From: Oscillospiraceae bacterium
GTDB lineage: Bacteria > Bacillota > Clostridia > Oscillospirales > Oscillospiraceae
Assembly (NCBI GenBank): GCA_017458065.1
Contig: JAFTGD010000003.1
Coordinates: forward strand, 1-64,000
Direction of reading: 5' to 3'
DNA: 64,000 bases
The translations under genes were made by a program, and so were the position numbers. Of the stretch, positions 54,270 to 61,643 are shown piece after piece. Numbering within the stretch: the first letter of the stretch is position 1; the number at the start of each line of letters is the position of its first letter. Below the pieces are notes generated by a model. That model was not told the DNA's origin. It searched no databases and worked only from the letters and a program-made list of their open reading frames with translations.

Positions 54270-54287
54270 GGTCACAAAAAGGTCACA
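54270..54287 (-). promoter_or_regulatory. SARP-type direct repeat upstream of the LytS-like kinase
   Basis: Two perfect heptamers GGTCACA begin at 54270 and 54281 (TGTGACC on the minus strand), 11 bases apart with AAAA between them. The same structure precedes the double-glycine peptide gene (58268-58285). Confidence 0.65.
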
Positions 54288-54397
54288 GAGTTTCGGACCT
54301 GTTTTGACTTGCATTTTTCAAAAGGAAAGCATAACATGATAGCGGCGGAGCAGGGGGCGGAGACCGTGTTCCGCATGCCGCGGAGGAGAGGAGAGCC

Positions 54398-56191
54398 ATG
54401 ACAAAGCAAAGGACAAAGGATATGCTTTTTGCAGTCCTGATGGGCTGCATCTGTGCAGGCTTTCTGGCTGTACTGCTGCTGAGCGGGTTGCGGGATCCCC
54501 GGGATTGGCCGAAAAGGGATGCGGCGTACACCGAGCTTACAGACTTCCGTCCGGAGGTCCGGAAGACGGAGGCGTATGCCGGAGCGGAAAAGCGCTATAC
54601 GACGGTGCTTCCCGAGGTGGAGACGGAAAAAGAAAACCTGTTTGTCTATTTTGTTCACGCCTATGCGCAGGTGAGTCTGGACGGAGAAGTCCTGGCTGTC
54701 ACAAATGAAGACCAGGGGCAGAGACTGGGTCACTCGCCGGGCTGCTACTGGCTTGTCGTCCCGCTGGCAGCCGCCGACAGCGGAAAAGAGCTTGAGATCG
54801 TCTCCATCCCGATCTATACCGCGGTAGAGAACCGAAATCCGCGGGTTTTTCTGGGACGATGGAATTCCGTGTTGATCGCCCTGGCGCACGAATGCCTGTG
54901 GGAGCTCATCCTGAGCATTATCTGCATGGTGTCCGGCCTGCTGGTTCTGACCTTCTCCCTGCTGCTGCACAGCAGTCGGCAGGAACGGATGCAGATGCTG
55001 TATCTGGGCGTCTTCACGCTGTCGGTAGGGCTGTGGCGCCTGAGCGATCTGCAGATTACCCCGATGGTATTGCCCCGTTTTACGGTTTTATTGTACGTCC
55101 TTGCCTTTCTCAGCACGCTGCTGTGCCCGGTGTTTTTCTGCCGCTTCCTGTACTGGCGTCATATGGGGAACCGGGAGGGCGTATACGGCTGGCTGAGCAT
55201 CCTGCTGGCGGCGGAGAGCCTGGCGCTGATCGTGCTGCAGCTTCTGGGGCTGGTCGAGCTGAGAGCGGTGTTGAGCGTACCGCTCCTGGCGATCCTGATG
55301 GTCGGCGCGGTGATTGCCGTCCACTCCGTCCGGAACCTGAGCAGAGGGTCGTATAACCGGATGTTTATCCTCGACAACTGCATGTATCTTGCCTTTGTTC
55401 TGGCCGTCCTTTTTGATCTGCTGCGTTTTCTGACGGTGGGCAATTCGCGCTTCCTGACGGGGTTTCTCACGGTCACGGTGCTGCATCTGCTGGCGATGGG
55501 GATGAGCATCCTCCGCCAGGCGGCCGAACGCCAGAGACGGGCGGGCGAGCTGGAAGCGGAGCTGGCCAAGGAACATACCAGGCTGATGCTGAGCCAGATC
55601 CAGCCGCATTTTCTGTACAACGCGCTGAGCGTGATCCGGGAGCTCTGCCACCGCGACCCGGAGAAGGCGGAGAAGGCGACAGTCCGGTTTGCCGATTATC
55701 TGCGGCAGAACATGGACTCCCTCCTGATGGAAGCGCCCGTTCCCTTCCGGGAAGAGCTCCGGCATACCCAAAACTATGCGGAGCTTGAGCAGCTGCGCTT
55801 CCAGGAGCGGCTGCAGATGGAATATGACATCCCGATTCAGGAGTTCAGCCTGCCCGCGCTGACGCTGCAGCCGATCGTTGAGAACGCAGTCAAATACACC
55901 ATGCGCGCACAGGTTGACGGAAGGATCGTCATCCGGACACGGGAGACCGAAACCGCGTTCCTGATCCGGGTGGAGGACAACGGTCCCGGCTTTGATCCGG
56001 AAGCGGTCCCCGAAGACGGCAAAAGCCATGTGGGCATCCGCAACGTCCGGAACAGGCTGAGCCAGATGTGCGGCGGACAGCTGTATATCGAATCCGTGAT
56101 CGGGGAGGGGACAACCGCGGTTATTGAGATCCCCAAGACCCCGGAGACGACGAACCGTGCCGGGGAAGAACAGAAAAAGGAGAGGGTTTGA
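54398..56191 (+). CDS. LytS-type sensor histidine kinase with 7TM region
   Basis: A 597-residue membrane kinase. N-terminal helix (about 10-30), an extracellular domain to about residue 160, then seven hydrophobic helices (about 165-385), similar in layout to 7TMR-DISM sensors. The cytoplasmic part is of the His_kinase/LytS type: SQIQPHFLYNALSVIREL with the phospho-acceptor H404, then LQPIVENAVKY and VEDNGPGFDPE, with VGIRNVRNRL. It is followed after three bases by its response regulator. The ligand may be the peptide encoded opposite (inference). Shine-Dalgarno AGGAGAGGAG. Confidence 0.9.
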   Translation: MTKQRTKDMLFAVLMGCICAGFLAVLLLSGLRDPRDWPKRDAAYTELTDFRPEVRKTEAYAGAEKRYTTVLPEVETEKENLFVYFVHAYAQVSLDGEVLAVTNEDQGQRLGHSPGCYWLVVPLAAADSGKELEIVSIPIYTAVENRNPRVFLGRWNSVLIALAHECLWELILSIICMVSGLLVLTFSLLLHSSRQERMQMLYLGVFTLSVGLWRLSDLQITPMVLPRFTVLLYVLAFLSTLLCPVFFCRFLYWRHMGNREGVYGWLSILLAAESLALIVLQLLGLVELRAVLSVPLLAILMVGAVIAVHSVRNLSRGSYNRMFILDNCMYLAFVLAVLFDLLRFLTVGNSRFLTGFLTVTVLHLLAMGMSILRQAAERQRRAGELEAELAKEHTRLMLSQIQPHFLYNALSVIRELCHRDPEKAEKATVRFADYLRQNMDSLLMEAPVPFREELRHTQNYAELEQLRFQERLQMEYDIPIQEFSLPALTLQPIVENAVKYTMRAQVDGRIVIRTRETETAFLIRVEDNGPGFDPEAVPEDGKSHVGIRNVRNRLSQMCGGQLYIESVIGEGTTAVIEIPKTPETTNRAGEEQKKERV

Positions 56192-56194
56192 AGA

Positions 56195-56986
56195 ATGCGG
56201 ATCATCGTTGTGGACGATGAAGAGCTGGTGCTCGAAGGAGAGATCAGACTGATCCGGGAATGTGCGCCGGAGGCAACCGTGAGAGGCTTCCGGAGTCCGC
56301 AGAATGCGCTGGACTATCTGAAGACCTGCGCGGCGGACGTCGCGTTTGTGGATTTTGAGATGCCGCAGTGCCACGGGCTGGTGCTGGCTAAACAGATGAA
56401 AGCCCTCTGCCCGCAGATCAACATCATCTTTGCCACGGCGTATCGGGATTATTATGCCGACGCCATCAACCTGCGCGCCTCCGGCTATCTGCTCAAGCCC
56501 CTGCACGAAGAACGGATCAAAGAGGAGCTGGACAATCTCCGCTATCCGGTGGAGACGGGCAAGCGAGGACTCTATGCGCGCGCCTTCGGCAATTTTGAGG
56601 TGTTCTATAACGGCCAGCCGATGATGTTCCGCTATCACAAGACCAAGGAACTTCTGGCGTATCTGATCGACCGGAGAGGCGCGCTTGTCAGCCGGGATGA
56701 ACTGGTCACGGCGCTGTGGGGTGGTGAGCATGAGCACAGCAGCTACTTCAAGCAGCTGCAGAAGGACCTCAGGGACACCTTCGCAGGGTTTGACTGCGCC
56801 GATCTGCTGATCAAACAGAAGGGAGCCATCGGTGTGCTGGCCGGCAAGATCGCCTGCGACTACTACGACTGGCTCGAGGGCCTGCCGGAAGGGCTGAACG
56901 CCTATCACGGAGAATATATGCGGCAGTACTCCTGGGCCGAATCGACCAGGCTCAGCCTGGAAGGAGACAGTCACATTTGGGAATAG
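56195..56986 (+). CDS. Response regulator with SARP-like output domain (1)
   Basis: A 263-residue regulator. The receiver has IIVVDDEELVLEG, phospho-acceptor D53 in VAFVDFEMPQCHG and the lysine in GYLLKPLHEE. Residues from about 128 form an OmpR/SARP-type winged helix (YARAFGNFEVFYNGQPMMF, then KTKELLAYLIDRRGALVSRDEL, ALWGG), followed by a short helical tail (YYDWLEGLPEGLNAYHGEYM) resembling the start of a BTAD domain. SARP proteins bind 11-base-period direct repeats, and one lies upstream of this operon. Paralog of the 57143-57958 regulator. Confidence 0.88.
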   Translation: MRIIVVDDEELVLEGEIRLIRECAPEATVRGFRSPQNALDYLKTCAADVAFVDFEMPQCHGLVLAKQMKALCPQINIIFATAYRDYYADAINLRASGYLLKPLHEERIKEELDNLRYPVETGKRGLYARAFGNFEVFYNGQPMMFRYHKTKELLAYLIDRRGALVSRDELVTALWGGEHEHSSYFKQLQKDLRDTFAGFDCADLLIKQKGAIGVLAGKIACDYYDWLEGLPEGLNAYHGEYMRQYSWAESTRLSLEGDSHIWE

Positions 56987-57011
56987 GAGACGGCTCCTGT
57001 CTCAAGACAGA

Positions 57012-57063
57012 AAGACAGAAAGAACAGGGCGTTATGGCGACGGCCTGTCCTTTCTGTCTTTTG
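57012..57063 (+). terminator. Terminator of the kinase-regulator operon
   Basis: A long stem (AAGACAGAAAGA…ACAGG / CCTGT…CCTTTCTGTCTT) followed by TTTG, 25 bases past the stop. Confidence 0.85.
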
Positions 57064-57142
57064 TTCGTACTCATGCGGGATACGGTGACAGCCTGTATCG
57101 GCGCGGCATGATCCCCGCGGCGTACGGATCAAAACAGAGCCA

Positions 57143-57958
57143 TCACACAGTTCTGTTATTGACCCTGTCCAGGTAGGCTTCCGTGAGACTTGCCCAGGAA
57201 TAGGAACTCATGTATTCCCCCCGATAGGCGTTGACCGCTTCGGGATCACCTTCAAAAAAGCGGTACATATCACAATCGAACCTCTCCGGAATGACGCGCA
57301 AAATGCCTTTTTTCAGTTCAAAGATCTCAGCAGCGCCGTATTCCTGCAGAGTGTCCCGCAGCGAGCGGATCACCGTATCCAGCTGCTTCTGTTTGGCGCG
57401 GTCATACTGCGCGTCCTCCCACAGGGCCGAGAAAACCGTCGACCTCGAGACACTGCAGCCCTGTCGGTCAACCAGAAACGCCAGCAGCTCCTTCGCCTTG
57501 GAGCGGGAGAAGAAGACAAGCTGCCCGTCCACATAGAGATCAAATTCTCCGAAGGTACGAACCAGAATATGCGGACCGGCCTTTTTCAGCCCCATCCGGT
57601 CCCGGATGTCGGCGACGTAATCGATCTCTTCCGCCAGCCGCTCGGCGCTGACCGGCTTAAGAAGATATCCGGAGGCACGGACGGCAAAGGCGTCAACGGC
57701 GTACTGCGAGTAGCCGGGCAGGAAGATGACGGATAAATCCGGATGCAGTTCCTTGATCCGGGCAGCCAGCATGATGCCGTCCATACCCCGCAGGCAGATG
57801 TCCAGCAGGGCAATGTCCGCCGTATTGGTTTTGAGCCAGGCCAGCGCGGCTTCCGCGTCTTCAAAGCCGGTCACTTCGGGTTTTTGGGGCAGCCCGCGGC
57901 ACAGACGAACCGTTGAGTCCAGCACAAGCGGTTCATCATCTACACAGATGATCGTCAT
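57143..57958 (-). CDS. Response regulator with SARP-like output domain (2)
   Basis: A 271-residue paralog of the 56195-56986 regulator with the same layout. Receiver: IICVDDEPLVLDS, D53 in IALLDICLRGMDG, lysine in GYLLKPVSAE. Output: VRTFGEFDLYVDGQLVFF, SKAKELLAFLVDRQGCSVSRSTV, SALWED, then RFFEGDPEAVNAYRGEYM. It has no kinase beside it on its own strand and may use the LytS-type kinase encoded convergently. The Shine-Dalgarno AAGGAGG is clear. It lies 63 bases after the double-glycine peptide gene and is probably cotranscribed with it. Confidence 0.87.
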   Translation of the reverse strand: MTIICVDDEPLVLDSTVRLCRGLPQKPEVTGFEDAEAALAWLKTNTADIALLDICLRGMDGIMLAARIKELHPDLSVIFLPGYSQYAVDAFAVRASGYLLKPVSAERLAEEIDYVADIRDRMGLKKAGPHILVRTFGEFDLYVDGQLVFFSRSKAKELLAFLVDRQGCSVSRSTVFSALWEDAQYDRAKQKQLDTVIRSLRDTLQEYGAAEIFELKKGILRVIPERFDCDMYRFFEGDPEAVNAYRGEYMSSYSWASLTEAYLDRVNNRTV

Positions 57959-58021
57959 GGTCTACAGCCTCCTTGATGCAGCAGCTCTGTTACAGCGGTA
58001 TCTTCACGCATTCCGCCTCAG

Positions 58022-58216
58022 CTATCTTTTATACCAGTACTCCGTTTTGCAGCAGGTGCAGCGGCGGTGCTCCACTCCGCCTGCCTCCATCAGGATCAGA
58101 ATGTATGCCACGCTGTGGCATTTCGGGCAGCGGTTTTCGTACTGAATGGTGACGCCTCCGGCTGCTTTTTCCAGTTCTTCGTCTTCCAGCGCTTTGGTGT
58201 TCAGGGTTTCATTCAT
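58022..58216 (-). CDS. Double-glycine leader, cysteine-rich small peptide
   Basis: A 64-residue product. Residues 1-21 look like a bacteriocin/RiPP-type double-glycine leader (NTKALEDEELEKAAGG, with the acidic ELEKAAGG ending). The remainder (43 residues) has five cysteines: CPKC (30, 33) and CTCC (53, 55, 56), spaced like a zinc ribbon or a disulfide-rich peptide. No C39-peptidase exporter or modifying enzyme is in the window. The start is ATG 58216 with AAGGAGCG upstream. It lies between the cyclase module and a SARP-like regulator and has its own direct-repeat control site. Confidence 0.72.
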   Translation of the reverse strand: MNETLNTKALEDEELEKAAGGVTIQYENRCPKCHSVAYILILMEAGGVEHRRCTCCKTEYWYKR

Positions 58217-58251
58217 GATAGATCGCTCCTTCTGTATGAATCTTGTCAATG

Positions 58252-58285
58252 ATAATAGCACGGCGTTTGTCACAAAACGGTCACA
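58252..58285 (-). promoter_or_regulatory. SARP-type direct repeat and -10 of the peptide gene
   Basis: On the minus strand TGTGACC (58285-58279), four bases, then TGTGACA (58274-58268), starting 11 bases apart. A -10 TATTAT (58257-58252) follows after 10 bases and no -35 consensus is present. This is the arrangement of activator-dependent SARP promoters, and it matches the site at 54270-54287. Confidence 0.65.
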
Positions 58286-58306: not shown

Positions 58307-59110
58307 TCACGCGGCGATCACAATGACCTGGCCTTCTCTCGCATAAGAGGCCCTGTCGGACAGCAGCTTTTCGCCGCGCGTACGGAGGACGGAGTCCGTG
58401 CTCTTTGGATCATGATGGATCAGCAGCAGACGGCGGATGCCGGCAGCCTCCATCAGCTCCAGGCCTTTTTCGGCGGTGGAGTGACCGTAGCCCTTCTTCC
58501 GCTCATATTCCGCTGCGTCAAACTGCGCGTCATACAGCAGCAGGTCCGCACCTTGGCAGAAAGCGGTGAGCTCCGGGTCAAAGGCCCCGTGTTCATAGTC
58601 AGACGCGTAGACAAGGGACCTGCCGGCACAGCTCAGCTTAAAAACCATGCAGCCTCCCGGATGACGCCCCGGTATGGCCTCTATCTGCAGTTCTCCGACC
58701 GCAAAACGCCCCGGTAAAGGCCGTATCTGCAGCGCAGCTCCCAGCTCATCCAATTTCACCGGCCAGAGCGGCGGCGAATAGACTCGCTCCAGCTGGCTCA
58801 CGGCGGCATTTTTGTCCTCACAAAACGGCACATACAGACTGACAGGCTGGTCCTTCTGTGACAGCAGGGGAGACATGCCGAGGCCGATCACGTGATCCAG
58901 ATGCAGATGGCTCAGCAAAATCACAGGCGGTCTGGCATAGGTCTCCGGTGCGGAGAGCAGACCGCTTCCCGCGTCCAGAAACACCGTCTCGTCTCCTGCC
59001 CGGACCATATAGCAGGAGGTGCTGCCTCCAAACTCGCTGTATTCCGCCCCCCCTACGGCGATGGAGCCGCGGGAGCCCAGAACAGTCAGCTCAAATCTGC
59101 TTGTATGCAT
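58307..59110 (-). CDS. MBL-fold hydrolase, possible cyclic-nucleotide phosphodiesterase
   Basis: A 267-residue metallo-beta-lactamase-fold protein. It begins FELTVLGSRGSIAVGGAEYSEFGGSTSC and has the zinc motif LSHLHLDHVIGLGM, a histidine in IPGRHPGGCMVFKL, the aspartate in YASDYEHGA and the final LIHHDP. The GSRGS start with the GG-S-T-S loop occurs in MBL proteins found next to class III cyclases; a phosphodiesterase role is inferred from that context. Start ATG 59110 (AAGGAG upstream) overlaps the cyclase end by 20 bases, indicating cotranslation. Confidence 0.8.
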   Translation of the reverse strand: MHTSRFELTVLGSRGSIAVGGAEYSEFGGSTSCYMVRAGDETVFLDAGSGLLSAPETYARPPVILLSHLHLDHVIGLGMSPLLSQKDQPVSLYVPFCEDKNAAVSQLERVYSPPLWPVKLDELGAALQIRPLPGRFAVGELQIEAIPGRHPGGCMVFKLSCAGRSLVYASDYEHGAFDPELTAFCQGADLLLYDAQFDAAEYERKKGYGHSTAEKGLELMEAAGIRRLLLIHHDPKSTDSVLRTRGEKLLSDRASYAREGQVIVIAA

Positions 59111-60569
59111 GCCTGTCTTCTCCTTCATCCGGCTCAATGGAAGCCCGGAAAACCCGCCGGGTCCATGCCTCAAAGCACGGCGGCTTTGCCGTAAAGGCGA
59201 TCCTGTATATGCCCTCGCCGCTTTCGGTCACCTTGGCGTACAGGCTCTCTCCGATGTCAAGGCAGAGGTTTGCGTACGGAGCGAGGGGCTTCTCAGACGT
59301 CAGGTCTGCTCCGCTTTCCGAGACCGCCATGAGCTTGCCCCGGATCCGCTCCGTGCCGATCTGCTTCTCTTCTACGAGAGAGAACAAAACTTCCGCCGGC
59401 TGCGGCAGAGGCCGCAGTTGACCGGCCGTTTCGTTTATGTGCAGGCGATAGGGCGCGCCGATCCCCACGATATCATAGAGCGGGATCTCACCTGAGGCCC
59501 CTTTCGGCGAGACCTGCAGGGCCTTTCGGACTTCCAGCTCTTCTCTGATCGCGGCATGTGTCCCGGGCGAGATCAGGATCTGCCCCGCGGTGGTGTAGCT
59601 TTCGATCCGCCCGGCCAGATTGACCGCCGAGCCGAGCACGCCGTATTTGGTGCGCTTTTCCGAGCCGATGTTGCCGAGGATCATCTCATCCGTGTTGATC
59701 CCGATCCCCATGCCGAGGGAGTCATAACCGTGTTCCGCATTCCACCGGTTGACACGGTCCATGCGCTTTTGCATACCGATGGCCGCCGCGACCGCGTCGG
59801 CGGCGTGAGTCTCTCTCCAGGTGGGCGCGCCGAATACCACCAGCATGCCGTCGCCCATAAACTCGATCAGGGTTCCGCGGTATCGCTCGATCTCGGCATA
59901 CATCTCGCCAAAGTAATGGTTCAGCATCGTGATGAGATCCTGCGCCTGCATGCGCTCCGACAGAGCCGTGAAGCCCCGCAGATCGCTCATCAGCACGGTG
60001 AGCGTCTTTCTCTGCCCGCCCAACTTCCAGCCCTCGGGGGAAGCCAGAATCTCCCGTACCACATCGTCGGAGAGGTATCGGCCGAAGGTCTCCTGCAGAA
60101 GACGGTTGCGAAGCTCCAGCCGGCGATTGAGCTCCTGGATCGTTTCCATGGCGCGGACGGCGTCCCGCATCTCCGTAAGCTCGGTGATGTCGCTGATGAC
60201 AAGGATGACGCCGATCATCTCTCCCTGCTCACGCAGGCAGGAGGAAACAACACGCAGCTGCCGGACGCCCTGCGCCGTGCGATATGGGACGTAACTCTCC
60301 CTGCGAATGCCTTTTTCATACACGGCGTCGAGAACGCACTGGATAAACGCATCGTTCTCTTCATCGTCAAAAAAGGCGCGGGCGAGGGACTTGCCCTCCA
60401 GATCGTTGTTCTCTTTCCCCAGAATGGTCAAAGCAGAGTCGTTGATCAGCTCAATAACGCCGTCAAAGCGGATGGCCATGACGCCCTCTGACATGTCCCG
60501 TATGATGCTGTTGCGGAAGATCTGATCGCGCTGCATCTTATCTGCACTCCATTCAAATCTGGCTTCCAT
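59091..60569 (-). CDS. PAS domain-class III adenylate/guanylate cyclase
   Basis: A 492-residue cytoplasmic signalling enzyme. Residues about 15-130 are a PAS domain (RDMSEGVMAIRFDGVIELIN). A helical linker leads to the cyclase domain (185-350) with both metal aspartates (D196 in LMSDLRGF, D240 in EFMGDGML), the base-contact lysine K308 in RTKYG, and the catalytic N317 and R321 in SAVNLAGR. S314 stands where adenylate cyclases often have Asp, so ATP or GTP preference is not certain. Residues about 390-475 (GKLMAVSESGADL) resemble a PilZ-type barrel. Start 60569 has a weak ribosome site; M12 is an alternative. Confidence 0.88.
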   Translation of the reverse strand: MEARFEWSADKMQRDQIFRNSIIRDMSEGVMAIRFDGVIELINDSALTILGKENNDLEGKSLARAFFDDEENDAFIQCVLDAVYEKGIRRESYVPYRTAQGVRQLRVVSSCLREQGEMIGVILVISDITELTEMRDAVRAMETIQELNRRLELRNRLLQETFGRYLSDDVVREILASPEGWKLGGQRKTLTVLMSDLRGFTALSERMQAQDLITMLNHYFGEMYAEIERYRGTLIEFMGDGMLVVFGAPTWRETHAADAVAAAIGMQKRMDRVNRWNAEHGYDSLGMGIGINTDEMILGNIGSEKRTKYGVLGSAVNLAGRIESYTTAGQILISPGTHAAIREELEVRKALQVSPKGASGEIPLYDIVGIGAPYRLHINETAGQLRPLPQPAEVLFSLVEEKQIGTERIRGKLMAVSESGADLTSEKPLAPYANLCLDIGESLYAKVTESGEGIYRIAFTAKPPCFEAWTRRVFRASIEPDEGEDRHAYKQI

Positions 60570-60596
60570 CCCAATCAGGGACGGAAGCCAACGCCG

Positions 60597-61121
60597 TTAA
60601 AAACGTCTGTATATAAAGGGATCGGCGAGGAAAACCTCAGGATCTGTCTGATATGACGCGTTCATGACGTTGTCATAAAACGCAAGGTATTTTTTGACCT
60701 TTTCCAGCAGCGACGCGCTGCGCTTTTCGGTCTTGCCGGAGGTTTCCTTCAGGGCATCCCGCACCTTGCAGGCGGCCTCGTAATCCTCCGTCAGATCCCG
60801 CAGGCGCCGGCTGAGCTGACGCATGATGGCAAGCAAACGGTCGGTCCGGGTCTTAAAATAATCGGAGAATTCCTCCGCGCCGATTACCTGAAGGGAGGTT
60901 CCGTCCTCCATGGCAACCGCCGTCGCACTGCGGGGGTAGGTCTCGATCAGACCCATCTCGCCGAGAAAGTCCCCTGCCTGCAGGACCGTGAGCCGGTTCT
61001 CGTTCTCCTTGCCGTAGTCGGTATAGATGCCGACGCTGCCGGAGATAATATCGTACATGTCTTGGCTGAAATCTCCCTGCCGGAAGATCACGCTGTCCTT
61101 GTCAAACGTCCTGGTAGTCAT
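60597..61121 (-). CDS. Cyclic-nucleotide-binding domain protein (2)
   Basis: A 174-residue protein. Residues 1-110 are a cNMP-binding barrel with a complete phosphate cassette: FLGEMGLIE (54-58) and PRSATAVA (R64). A helical tail follows (about 115-174). It lacks a DNA-binding helix-turn-helix, so it is not a Crp-type regulator and probably acts by protein contact. The ATG shares a base with the TAA of the upstream paralog. The cyclase gene starts 27 bases downstream, so ligand producer and binder are coexpressed. Confidence 0.9.
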   Translation of the reverse strand: MTTRTFDKDSVIFRQGDFSQDMYDIISGSVGIYTDYGKENENRLTVLQAGDFLGEMGLIETYPRSATAVAMEDGTSLQVIGAEEFSDYFKTRTDRLLAIMRQLSRRLRDLTEDYEAACKVRDALKETSGKTEKRSASLLEKVKKYLAFYDNVMNASYQTDPEVFLADPFIYRRF

Positions 61122-61513
61122 TATGCGCCCTCCTTCTCTGACAGTTCCTTGATGCTGCGGCAGACTTCCACAAAGTCACGGGTCCTTCTGCGCAGGTTGT
61201 GGCTCATCTGCTTCACGATCATGAACACGTTTGCGGGGTTCTTCTCAAAGAATTCGCCAAAAGCGTCCTCCGTGATGACGGCGGCAGAGGTGTTGTTTTC
61301 CATGGCCACCGCTGTGGCGGAACGCGGCGCCTTTTCCAGAAGGCCCATTTCGCCGAGATACTGGTCCGGATAATACTCCGTGAGCAGCTTCTGCTCCGGC
61401 GTTCCGTACGCCGCATAGACCCCGATCTTCCCGGTGTAGACATCATACATGCAGTCGCCGGGATCCCCTTCGTTGAAAATAACGTCCCCTTTTCTGAATG
61501 TTTTGATTTCCAT
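61121..61513 (-). CDS. Cyclic-nucleotide-binding domain protein (1)
   Basis: A 130-residue single cNMP-binding domain with the same cassette as its neighbour (YLGEMGLLE, then PRSATAVA with R64) and a short C-helix (MSHNLRRRTRDFVEVCRS). No output domain at all. Start ATG 61513 behind GAGGAGG; the longer frame to 61612 would include the promoter. First gene of the minus-strand cyclic-nucleotide operon. Confidence 0.9.
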   Translation of the reverse strand: MEIKTFRKGDVIFNEGDPGDCMYDVYTGKIGVYAAYGTPEQKLLTEYYPDQYLGEMGLLEKAPRSATAVAMENNTSAAVITEDAFGEFFEKNPANVFMIVKQMSHNLRRRTRDFVEVCRSIKELSEKEGA

Positions 61514-61587
61514 ACTGACCTCCTCAATATTTGTGACCTCGTCCGGTATCCCGTGCGAGCTCTTTTTCAAAATATATGATATCAGCT

Positions 61588-61643
61588 TATGATAGCATCG
61601 GGTGTCCAACAAATGTCCGTCAAAAAGTCTTCAACAAATGTCC
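61588..61643 (-). promoter_or_regulatory. Direct repeats upstream of the cyclic-nucleotide operon
   Basis: On the minus strand CGGACATTTGTTG occurs twice without mismatch (61643-61631 and 61618-61606), 25 bases apart, upstream of a -10 TATCAT (61593-61588). No -35 consensus at proper spacing, so an activator may be needed. Confidence 0.6.

Follow-up and report, generated by a model that had tools for sequence, protein, structure and literature searches.

A direct repeat at 58268–58285 (minus strand) of the window, the 64,000-nucleotide stretch of an Oscillospiraceae draft genome analysed here, belongs to a genus-wide class of promoters composed of a direct repeat, 10 bp and an extended -10 without a -35. 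We consider it probable (roughly 60%) that this repeat is the activator box of a -35-less promoter driving a peptide gene and the response regulator gene RR2 as part of a regulon found throughout the genus, with the response regulator RR1 as the likely binder and a second repeat copy at 54270–54287 as an operator or a relic. In the proposed mechanism, a response-regulator dimer with a SARP-like output domain would bind both repeats side by side, at about -40 to -19, and recruit RNA polymerase to the extended -10, and the peptide would be cleaved and exported via a peptidase-containing ABC transporter. The binder in this genome would most likely be RR1, phosphorylated by the neighbouring kinase, and in relatives it would be RR3, a sister clade whose receiver is degenerate. 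It is at the level of this genus-wide regulon of small, putatively exported proteins that the repeat becomes meaningful, and a two-component regulator resembling the antibiotic regulators of Streptomyces probably works the switch. A literature search, with most subscription journals outside its scope, found no description of such a regulon.

An exact direct repeat occurs twice in the window

The preliminary description had reported the repeat as occurring exactly twice, and both sequences and positions are as it gave them: TGTGACC-GTTT-TGTGACA at 58268–58285 and TGTGACC-TTTT-TGTGACC at 54270–54287, each on the minus strand. A chance origin of the pair was rejected, as the two exact matches to TGTGACCN4TGTGAC in the window compare with none in each of 100 dinucleotide-preserving shuffles. 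With two mismatches permitted, the shuffles contained a mean of 1.0 matches and 25 of the 100 reached two or more, so that the exact form alone stands out. In the whole draft genome (3.6 Mb on 83 contigs, 96.4% complete, the window lying on contig C27), TGTGACN5TGTGAC occurs four times. The genome-wide scan for TGTGACC-N4-TGTGAC that had been proposed as a check was run and returned just the two window copies; under a uniform expectation its 13 fixed bases would occur 0.11 times in the whole genome. The third exact match to TGTGACN5TGTGAC (C15:57485) is located upstream of another double-glycine peptide, and the fourth (C40:17168) has neither an in-register -10 nor a double-glycine peptide. 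The matches on C40 are explained by a different, dispersed repeat, made up of several TGTG(A/C)C...TGTGACGG motifs with GCAAGAGAATAT behind them, present on both strands (L058, G000:C40:10000-27000). On contig C68 (L048:2819), a one-mismatch repeat that lacks a canonical -10 comes after a paralogous pair of a kinase and an RR2-like gene, near the end of this 3-kb contig.

The repeat at 58268 had been described as ending 10 bases before a -10 with no -35, which is what we found: the hexamer TATTAT is situated at 58252–58257 with TG one base further upstream, giving an extended -10 (TG-C-TATTAT, 58252–58260, minus strand) that lies 10 bp past the second heptamer. This promoter scored 39.7 with a weight matrix built from 109 sites that excluded the own genome, inside the training range of 30.5-56.8, and the best of 6 mononucleotide shuffles reached -5.8.

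A genus-wide promoter class mostly precedes genes for small double-glycine proteins

Stretches around RR2 relatives were found to contain many TGTGAC-N5-TGTGAC pairs, many of them followed by an extended -10 and a small gene with a double-glycine leader. A pattern combining the repeat with the -10 gave 111 matches, the 58268 site among them, in 39 of 101 genomes of the same genus and 0 in the control, and a stricter pattern that also requires the TG was absent from all 294 genomes of the order outside the genus (295 taken, the own one included). The matches are not independent, since G027, G060 and G108 are near-identical around RR3. As the census pattern fixes both TGTGAC copies, the spacing and TATNNT, only the other positions are free evidence; among these, T at position 8 was present in 90% of the sites, the TG before the -10 in 92% and 88%, A after each TGTGAC in 74% and 70%, and G before the first repeat in 63%.

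It had also been suggested that hits might cluster before peptide, exporter or regulator genes, and this was borne out genus-wide for the promoter class, in which 84 of the 111 sites were judged by eye to precede small proteins with a double-glycine leader (90 flagged sites, minus 7 dropped by eye and plus one unflagged site). An automatic test for an ORF of at most 170 aa with such a leader was passed by 85 of the 111 sites versus 321 of 3000 random points. A domain scan of 81 of the 84 peptides (three run off their stretch) identified LysM in 40, CW_7 in 10, PepSY in 8, SH3_3 in 2 and a Lactococcin-like family in one; the double glycine is invariant in the alignment of these 81 peptides, which were themselves selected for it. 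The remaining 27 sites, again classified by eye, precede 11 genes for secreted proteins or lipoproteins, 6 for tiny membrane proteins and 10 that are of other kinds or undecided (two at a stretch end). Some canonical sites are located before large signal-peptide or lipoprotein genes (L047:2875, L116:4035, L150:4040, L110:2672, L132:4072 and L213:5688-8177), so that the regulon is wider than double-glycine peptides. Canonical sites also occur before genes for tiny, apparently membrane-spanning proteins of about 57-69 aa (L080:727, L087:1501, L109:1256, L166:4023 and L181:4055). The own genome contains four sites with an in-register -10. Two are upstream of the window peptide and of the Lactococcin-like C15 peptide; the other two, with one mismatch each, are on C58, upstream of a LysM peptide and of a lipoprotein.

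The peptide gene, its neighbours and the exporter

The peptide gene (58022–58216, minus strand) encodes 64 aa, with an N-terminal leader that ends in GG (...LEDEELEKAAGG) and a zinc-ribbon-like cargo (CPKC...CTCC). Its start was taken as the ATG at 58216; an alternative 83-aa frame from a GTG would overlap the promoter. The peptide had no match in Pfam and a weak, sub-threshold one to the zinc-ribbon family TIGR02443 (E 0.028). Homologues were detected in 8 of the other 101 genus genomes (E <= 0.01), and five of these loci were fetched, four of which were read for the repeat (the fifth, that of G007, was removed by the ORF filter). The two closest homologues are in the RR3-bearing genomes G120 and G076; there the repeat is retained, with two mismatches, and a -10-like hexamer (TACAAT and TAAGAT, respectively) stands at the same spacing. 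The repeat was not found upstream of the homologues in G033 (without RR3) and G034 (with RR3). The RR2 gene (57143–57958, minus strand; receiver and winged helix) lies 63 bp past the peptide gene and is probably in its operon; in the RR2 receiver the switch Thr is replaced by Pro.

Just upstream of the peptide promoter and on the same strand, 58307–61612 encodes a PAS-nucleotide-cyclase protein, a pair of cNMP-binding proteins that stand alone, and a protein of the metallo-beta-lactamase fold whose match to cyclic-nucleotide phosphodiesterases (NF041851, E 8e-16) stayed below threshold, a gene group that looks like a cyclic-nucleotide module. The nucleotide cyclase domain and the two cNMP-binding proteins (59091–61612) could in principle serve the TGTGA cores as half sites of the CRP/FNR type. 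We regard this reading as very improbable, given that CRP sites are inverted repeats and the window repeats are direct, that the two cNMP-binding proteins (174 and 163 aa) have no Pfam DNA-binding domain at E <= 0.1, and that the site follows RR3 across genomes.

The own genome contains one C39-type exporter, which is encoded on contig C75, not adjoining the window peptide, and shares 78% identity with the G015 exporter over 150 residues. A C39 match was obtained in 11 of the 17 genomes searched; G009 and G117, in which sites are present, gave none.

RR1 is a likelier binder than RR2

RR1 (56195–56986, plus strand) is encoded between the two repeats, directly behind a histidine kinase gene (54398–56191, plus strand; His_kinase PF06580 and HATPase_c). 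It keeps D7, D8, D53, T81 and K101 and scores above the Response_reg cut-off, as in OmpR/PhoB-type regulators, and its match to Trans_reg_C is just under the cut-off (22.9 vs 26.2 bits). With intact receiver residues and an output domain predicted to be SARP-like, it is the likeliest candidate binder here.

Across the genus, the site co-occurs with RR3, a clade of regulators with a receiver and a SARP-like domain. Among the 101 genomes, 35 have both RR3 (E <= 1e-114) and the exact site, one has RR3 alone, four have the site alone and 61 have neither (p = 1.7e-21, a value that ignores the species tree). The 101 genomes of the RR3 search, 31 of which were without a match, are assumed to be identical to the census set, and several RR3 loci were fetched on account of their sites. 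The one genome with RR3 and no exact site is G034, whose fetched stretch holds one-mismatch pairs; those with the site and no RR3 are G000, G009, G117 and G119, the last three of which are incomplete (65-83%). In a tree of the regulators, the RR2-like clade (24 rows) and a tight RR3 clade (20 rows) were each recovered with 100/100 support, and the window RR1 was placed as sister to RR3, a position that is modestly supported (82/81) and was flagged with a long-branch warning. RR3 itself was not found in the own genome, where RR1 was the best match (E 6.8e-52), and among its four regulators the recognition helix of RR1 is the most similar to that of RR3 (48% identity, versus 34% for a response regulator on C71 and 21% each for RR2 and the C68 regulator).

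The RR3 receivers are degenerate (for example L149:6407-7219 and 19 relatives). The canonical DD pocket is kept in none of the 20 (EE in five) and the phosphorylated Asp is absent from five, suggesting that RR3 may itself be regulated independently of phosphorylation; RR1 keeps both. In view of its being the best RR3 match, of its helix identity and of its intact receiver, RR1, together with the kinase, probably fills in this genome the role that RR3 has in others.

RR2 could instead bind the repeat and drive its own operon by positive feedback, with RR1 acting elsewhere, an arrangement suggested by the position of RR2 directly downstream of the peptide gene and by the C39 exporter, which is near RR2-like genes in 7 of 11 RR2 stretches fetched from the same genus (L037-L047), within the same stretch. 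The distribution of the site makes this unlikely: among 37 genus genomes it is present in 6 of 12 with RR2-like genes and in 7 of 25 without (p = 0.17), compared with p = 1e-6 for RR3 in the same genomes (species tree ignored in both cases). In four genomes that lack RR3 (G022, G023, G030 and G033), eight double-glycine genes located next to RR2-like genes have no TGTGAC pair within 260 bp upstream, and the RR2 recognition helix is, as given above, just 21% identical to that of RR3. The nearest named RR2 relatives (L092-L099) are metagenome bins, several from the ruminant gut, labelled Oscillibacter sp., Ruminococcus sp., Clostridia or Clostridiales; their fetched flanks showed no canonical site and, by the search used, no double-glycine peptide, and the two-repeat synteny was not traceable there. 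RR1 is the likelier binder of the two in this genome.

We also judge it quite unlikely that the class is bound in the own genome by the C71 response regulator or by a factor encoded on an unassembled part. The assembly is incomplete, as noted above, and over the whole winged helix C71 equals RR1 in identity to RR3 (40% vs 39%), but RR1 is the better overall match to RR3 (E 6.8e-52 vs 8.6e-43 for C71), has the better recognition helix and is encoded between both repeats.

The 54270 copy is probably an operator or a relic

The second repeat lies 9 bp past the stop codon of a LysR gene and 110 bp before the start of the kinase gene. It had been noted that its orientation points away from the kinase, and indeed a transcript from it would run antisense into the LysR gene. 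The hexamer TATTCT follows one base off the spacing of the 58268 type, an off-register -10 that is unique among 157 related sites, 111 of which owe their spacing of 11 to the way they were selected; among the remaining 46, TAYNNT is at 11 in 27 and at 10 in one, the window site at 54287. As a promoter the 54270 copy scored -14.5 with the weight matrix, within the range of shuffle maxima. A peptide gene behind it was rejected, as none was present in the ORF list or found when window ORFs of 30-170 aa were searched for the leader motif, and the scan detected no consensus promoter between the repeat and the kinase start.

These features, the off-by-one -10, the shuffle-like score and the lack of a peptide gene behind the repeat, would suit a functionless chance match. 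We find that reading doubtful, because the 13-base form is expected 0.11 times per genome and occurs here in two copies 4 kb apart around one regulator pair, and because a site upstream of the regulator and pointing away from it is also present in 4 of the 20 RR3 loci. In one of these (L165), the upstream site feeds a divergent LysM peptide. The 54270 copy is probably either an autoregulatory operator of the kinase-RR1 pair or the relic of a lost divergent peptide promoter.

A possible small-secretome regulon in uncultured gut Clostridia

We lean slightly towards the view that a regulon dedicated to the small secretome exists in this genus of uncultured gut Clostridia. In it, a receiver-SARP-like regulator would turn on, by way of one strict direct-repeat promoter, varied single-domain proteins (LysM, CW_7, SH3, PepSY and zinc-ribbon-like) that would be exported by a bacteriocin-type exporter. 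If so, double-glycine export would be a general route serving a small proteome that binds surfaces, rather than chiefly bacteriocins. The regulon is defined by sequence and comes with candidates for the regulator, the operator, the exporter and the cargo, in bacteria that lack genetic systems. It points to two-component regulators of Clostridia as further users of SARP-like activation, from a box replacing the -35, and to small wall-binding proteins as a possible load of double-glycine export; such genes would then be annotated differently.

Comparison with known systems

As full-length RR1 gave mostly receiver matches in the structural comparison, its output domain was modelled alone; the best structural matches of the model were EmbR and AfsR, over 140-142 of 146 residues. 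A sequence profile compared with solved structures had DrrB (E 0.00078) as its best match and also matched EmbR (E 0.013), which is weak alone. The model thus predicts an OmpR-type winged helix and, after it, the beginning of a BTA domain, as in SARPs. The domain is not complete, RR1 ending at the equivalent of AfsR residue 182, and Pfam BTAD matched none of 11 output domains at E <= 5, for which reasons we term RR1 SARP-like and not a SARP. The promoter arrangement of SARP targets, in which direct repeats spaced 11 bp apart replace the -35 and keep a constant distance to the -10, is present at 58268 and not at 54270. The SARP-operator interpretation of the preliminary description stands in part, its SARP idea being largely right: the promoter class, the afs-box register and the predicted RR1 fold agree with it, whereas the complete BTA domain is absent, RR1 is a likelier binder than RR2, and the 54270 copy has no canonical -10.

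The system closest in design is AfsR with the afs box, in which two 11-bp direct repeats likewise take the place where a -35 would be; numbering the -10 as -12 to -7 places the box described here at -40 to -19, in register with the afs box. The predicted output-domain fold resembles AfsR and EmbR over nearly its full length. In contrast to AfsR, a receiver domain stands in front here, the extended -10 is strong, the putative direct targets are small exported proteins of uncultured gut Clostridia, and RR1 is without most of the BTA region through which AfsR touches sigma and alpha-CTD. Response regulators of the OmpR/PhoB type share the combination of receiver and winged helix; the PhoB pho box and the PhoP boxes are described (PMC4832192) as 7-bp repeats, separated by a 4-bp spacer, to which dimers bind in tandem, and 7-bp repeats with such a spacer are found here too. 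The cargo side resembles double-glycine peptides with peptidase-containing ABC exporters of the class II bacteriocin type, with a leader ending in GG and a conserved C39 exporter in the own genome, but differs from them in that the cargo here is often a single wall-binding or PepSY domain.
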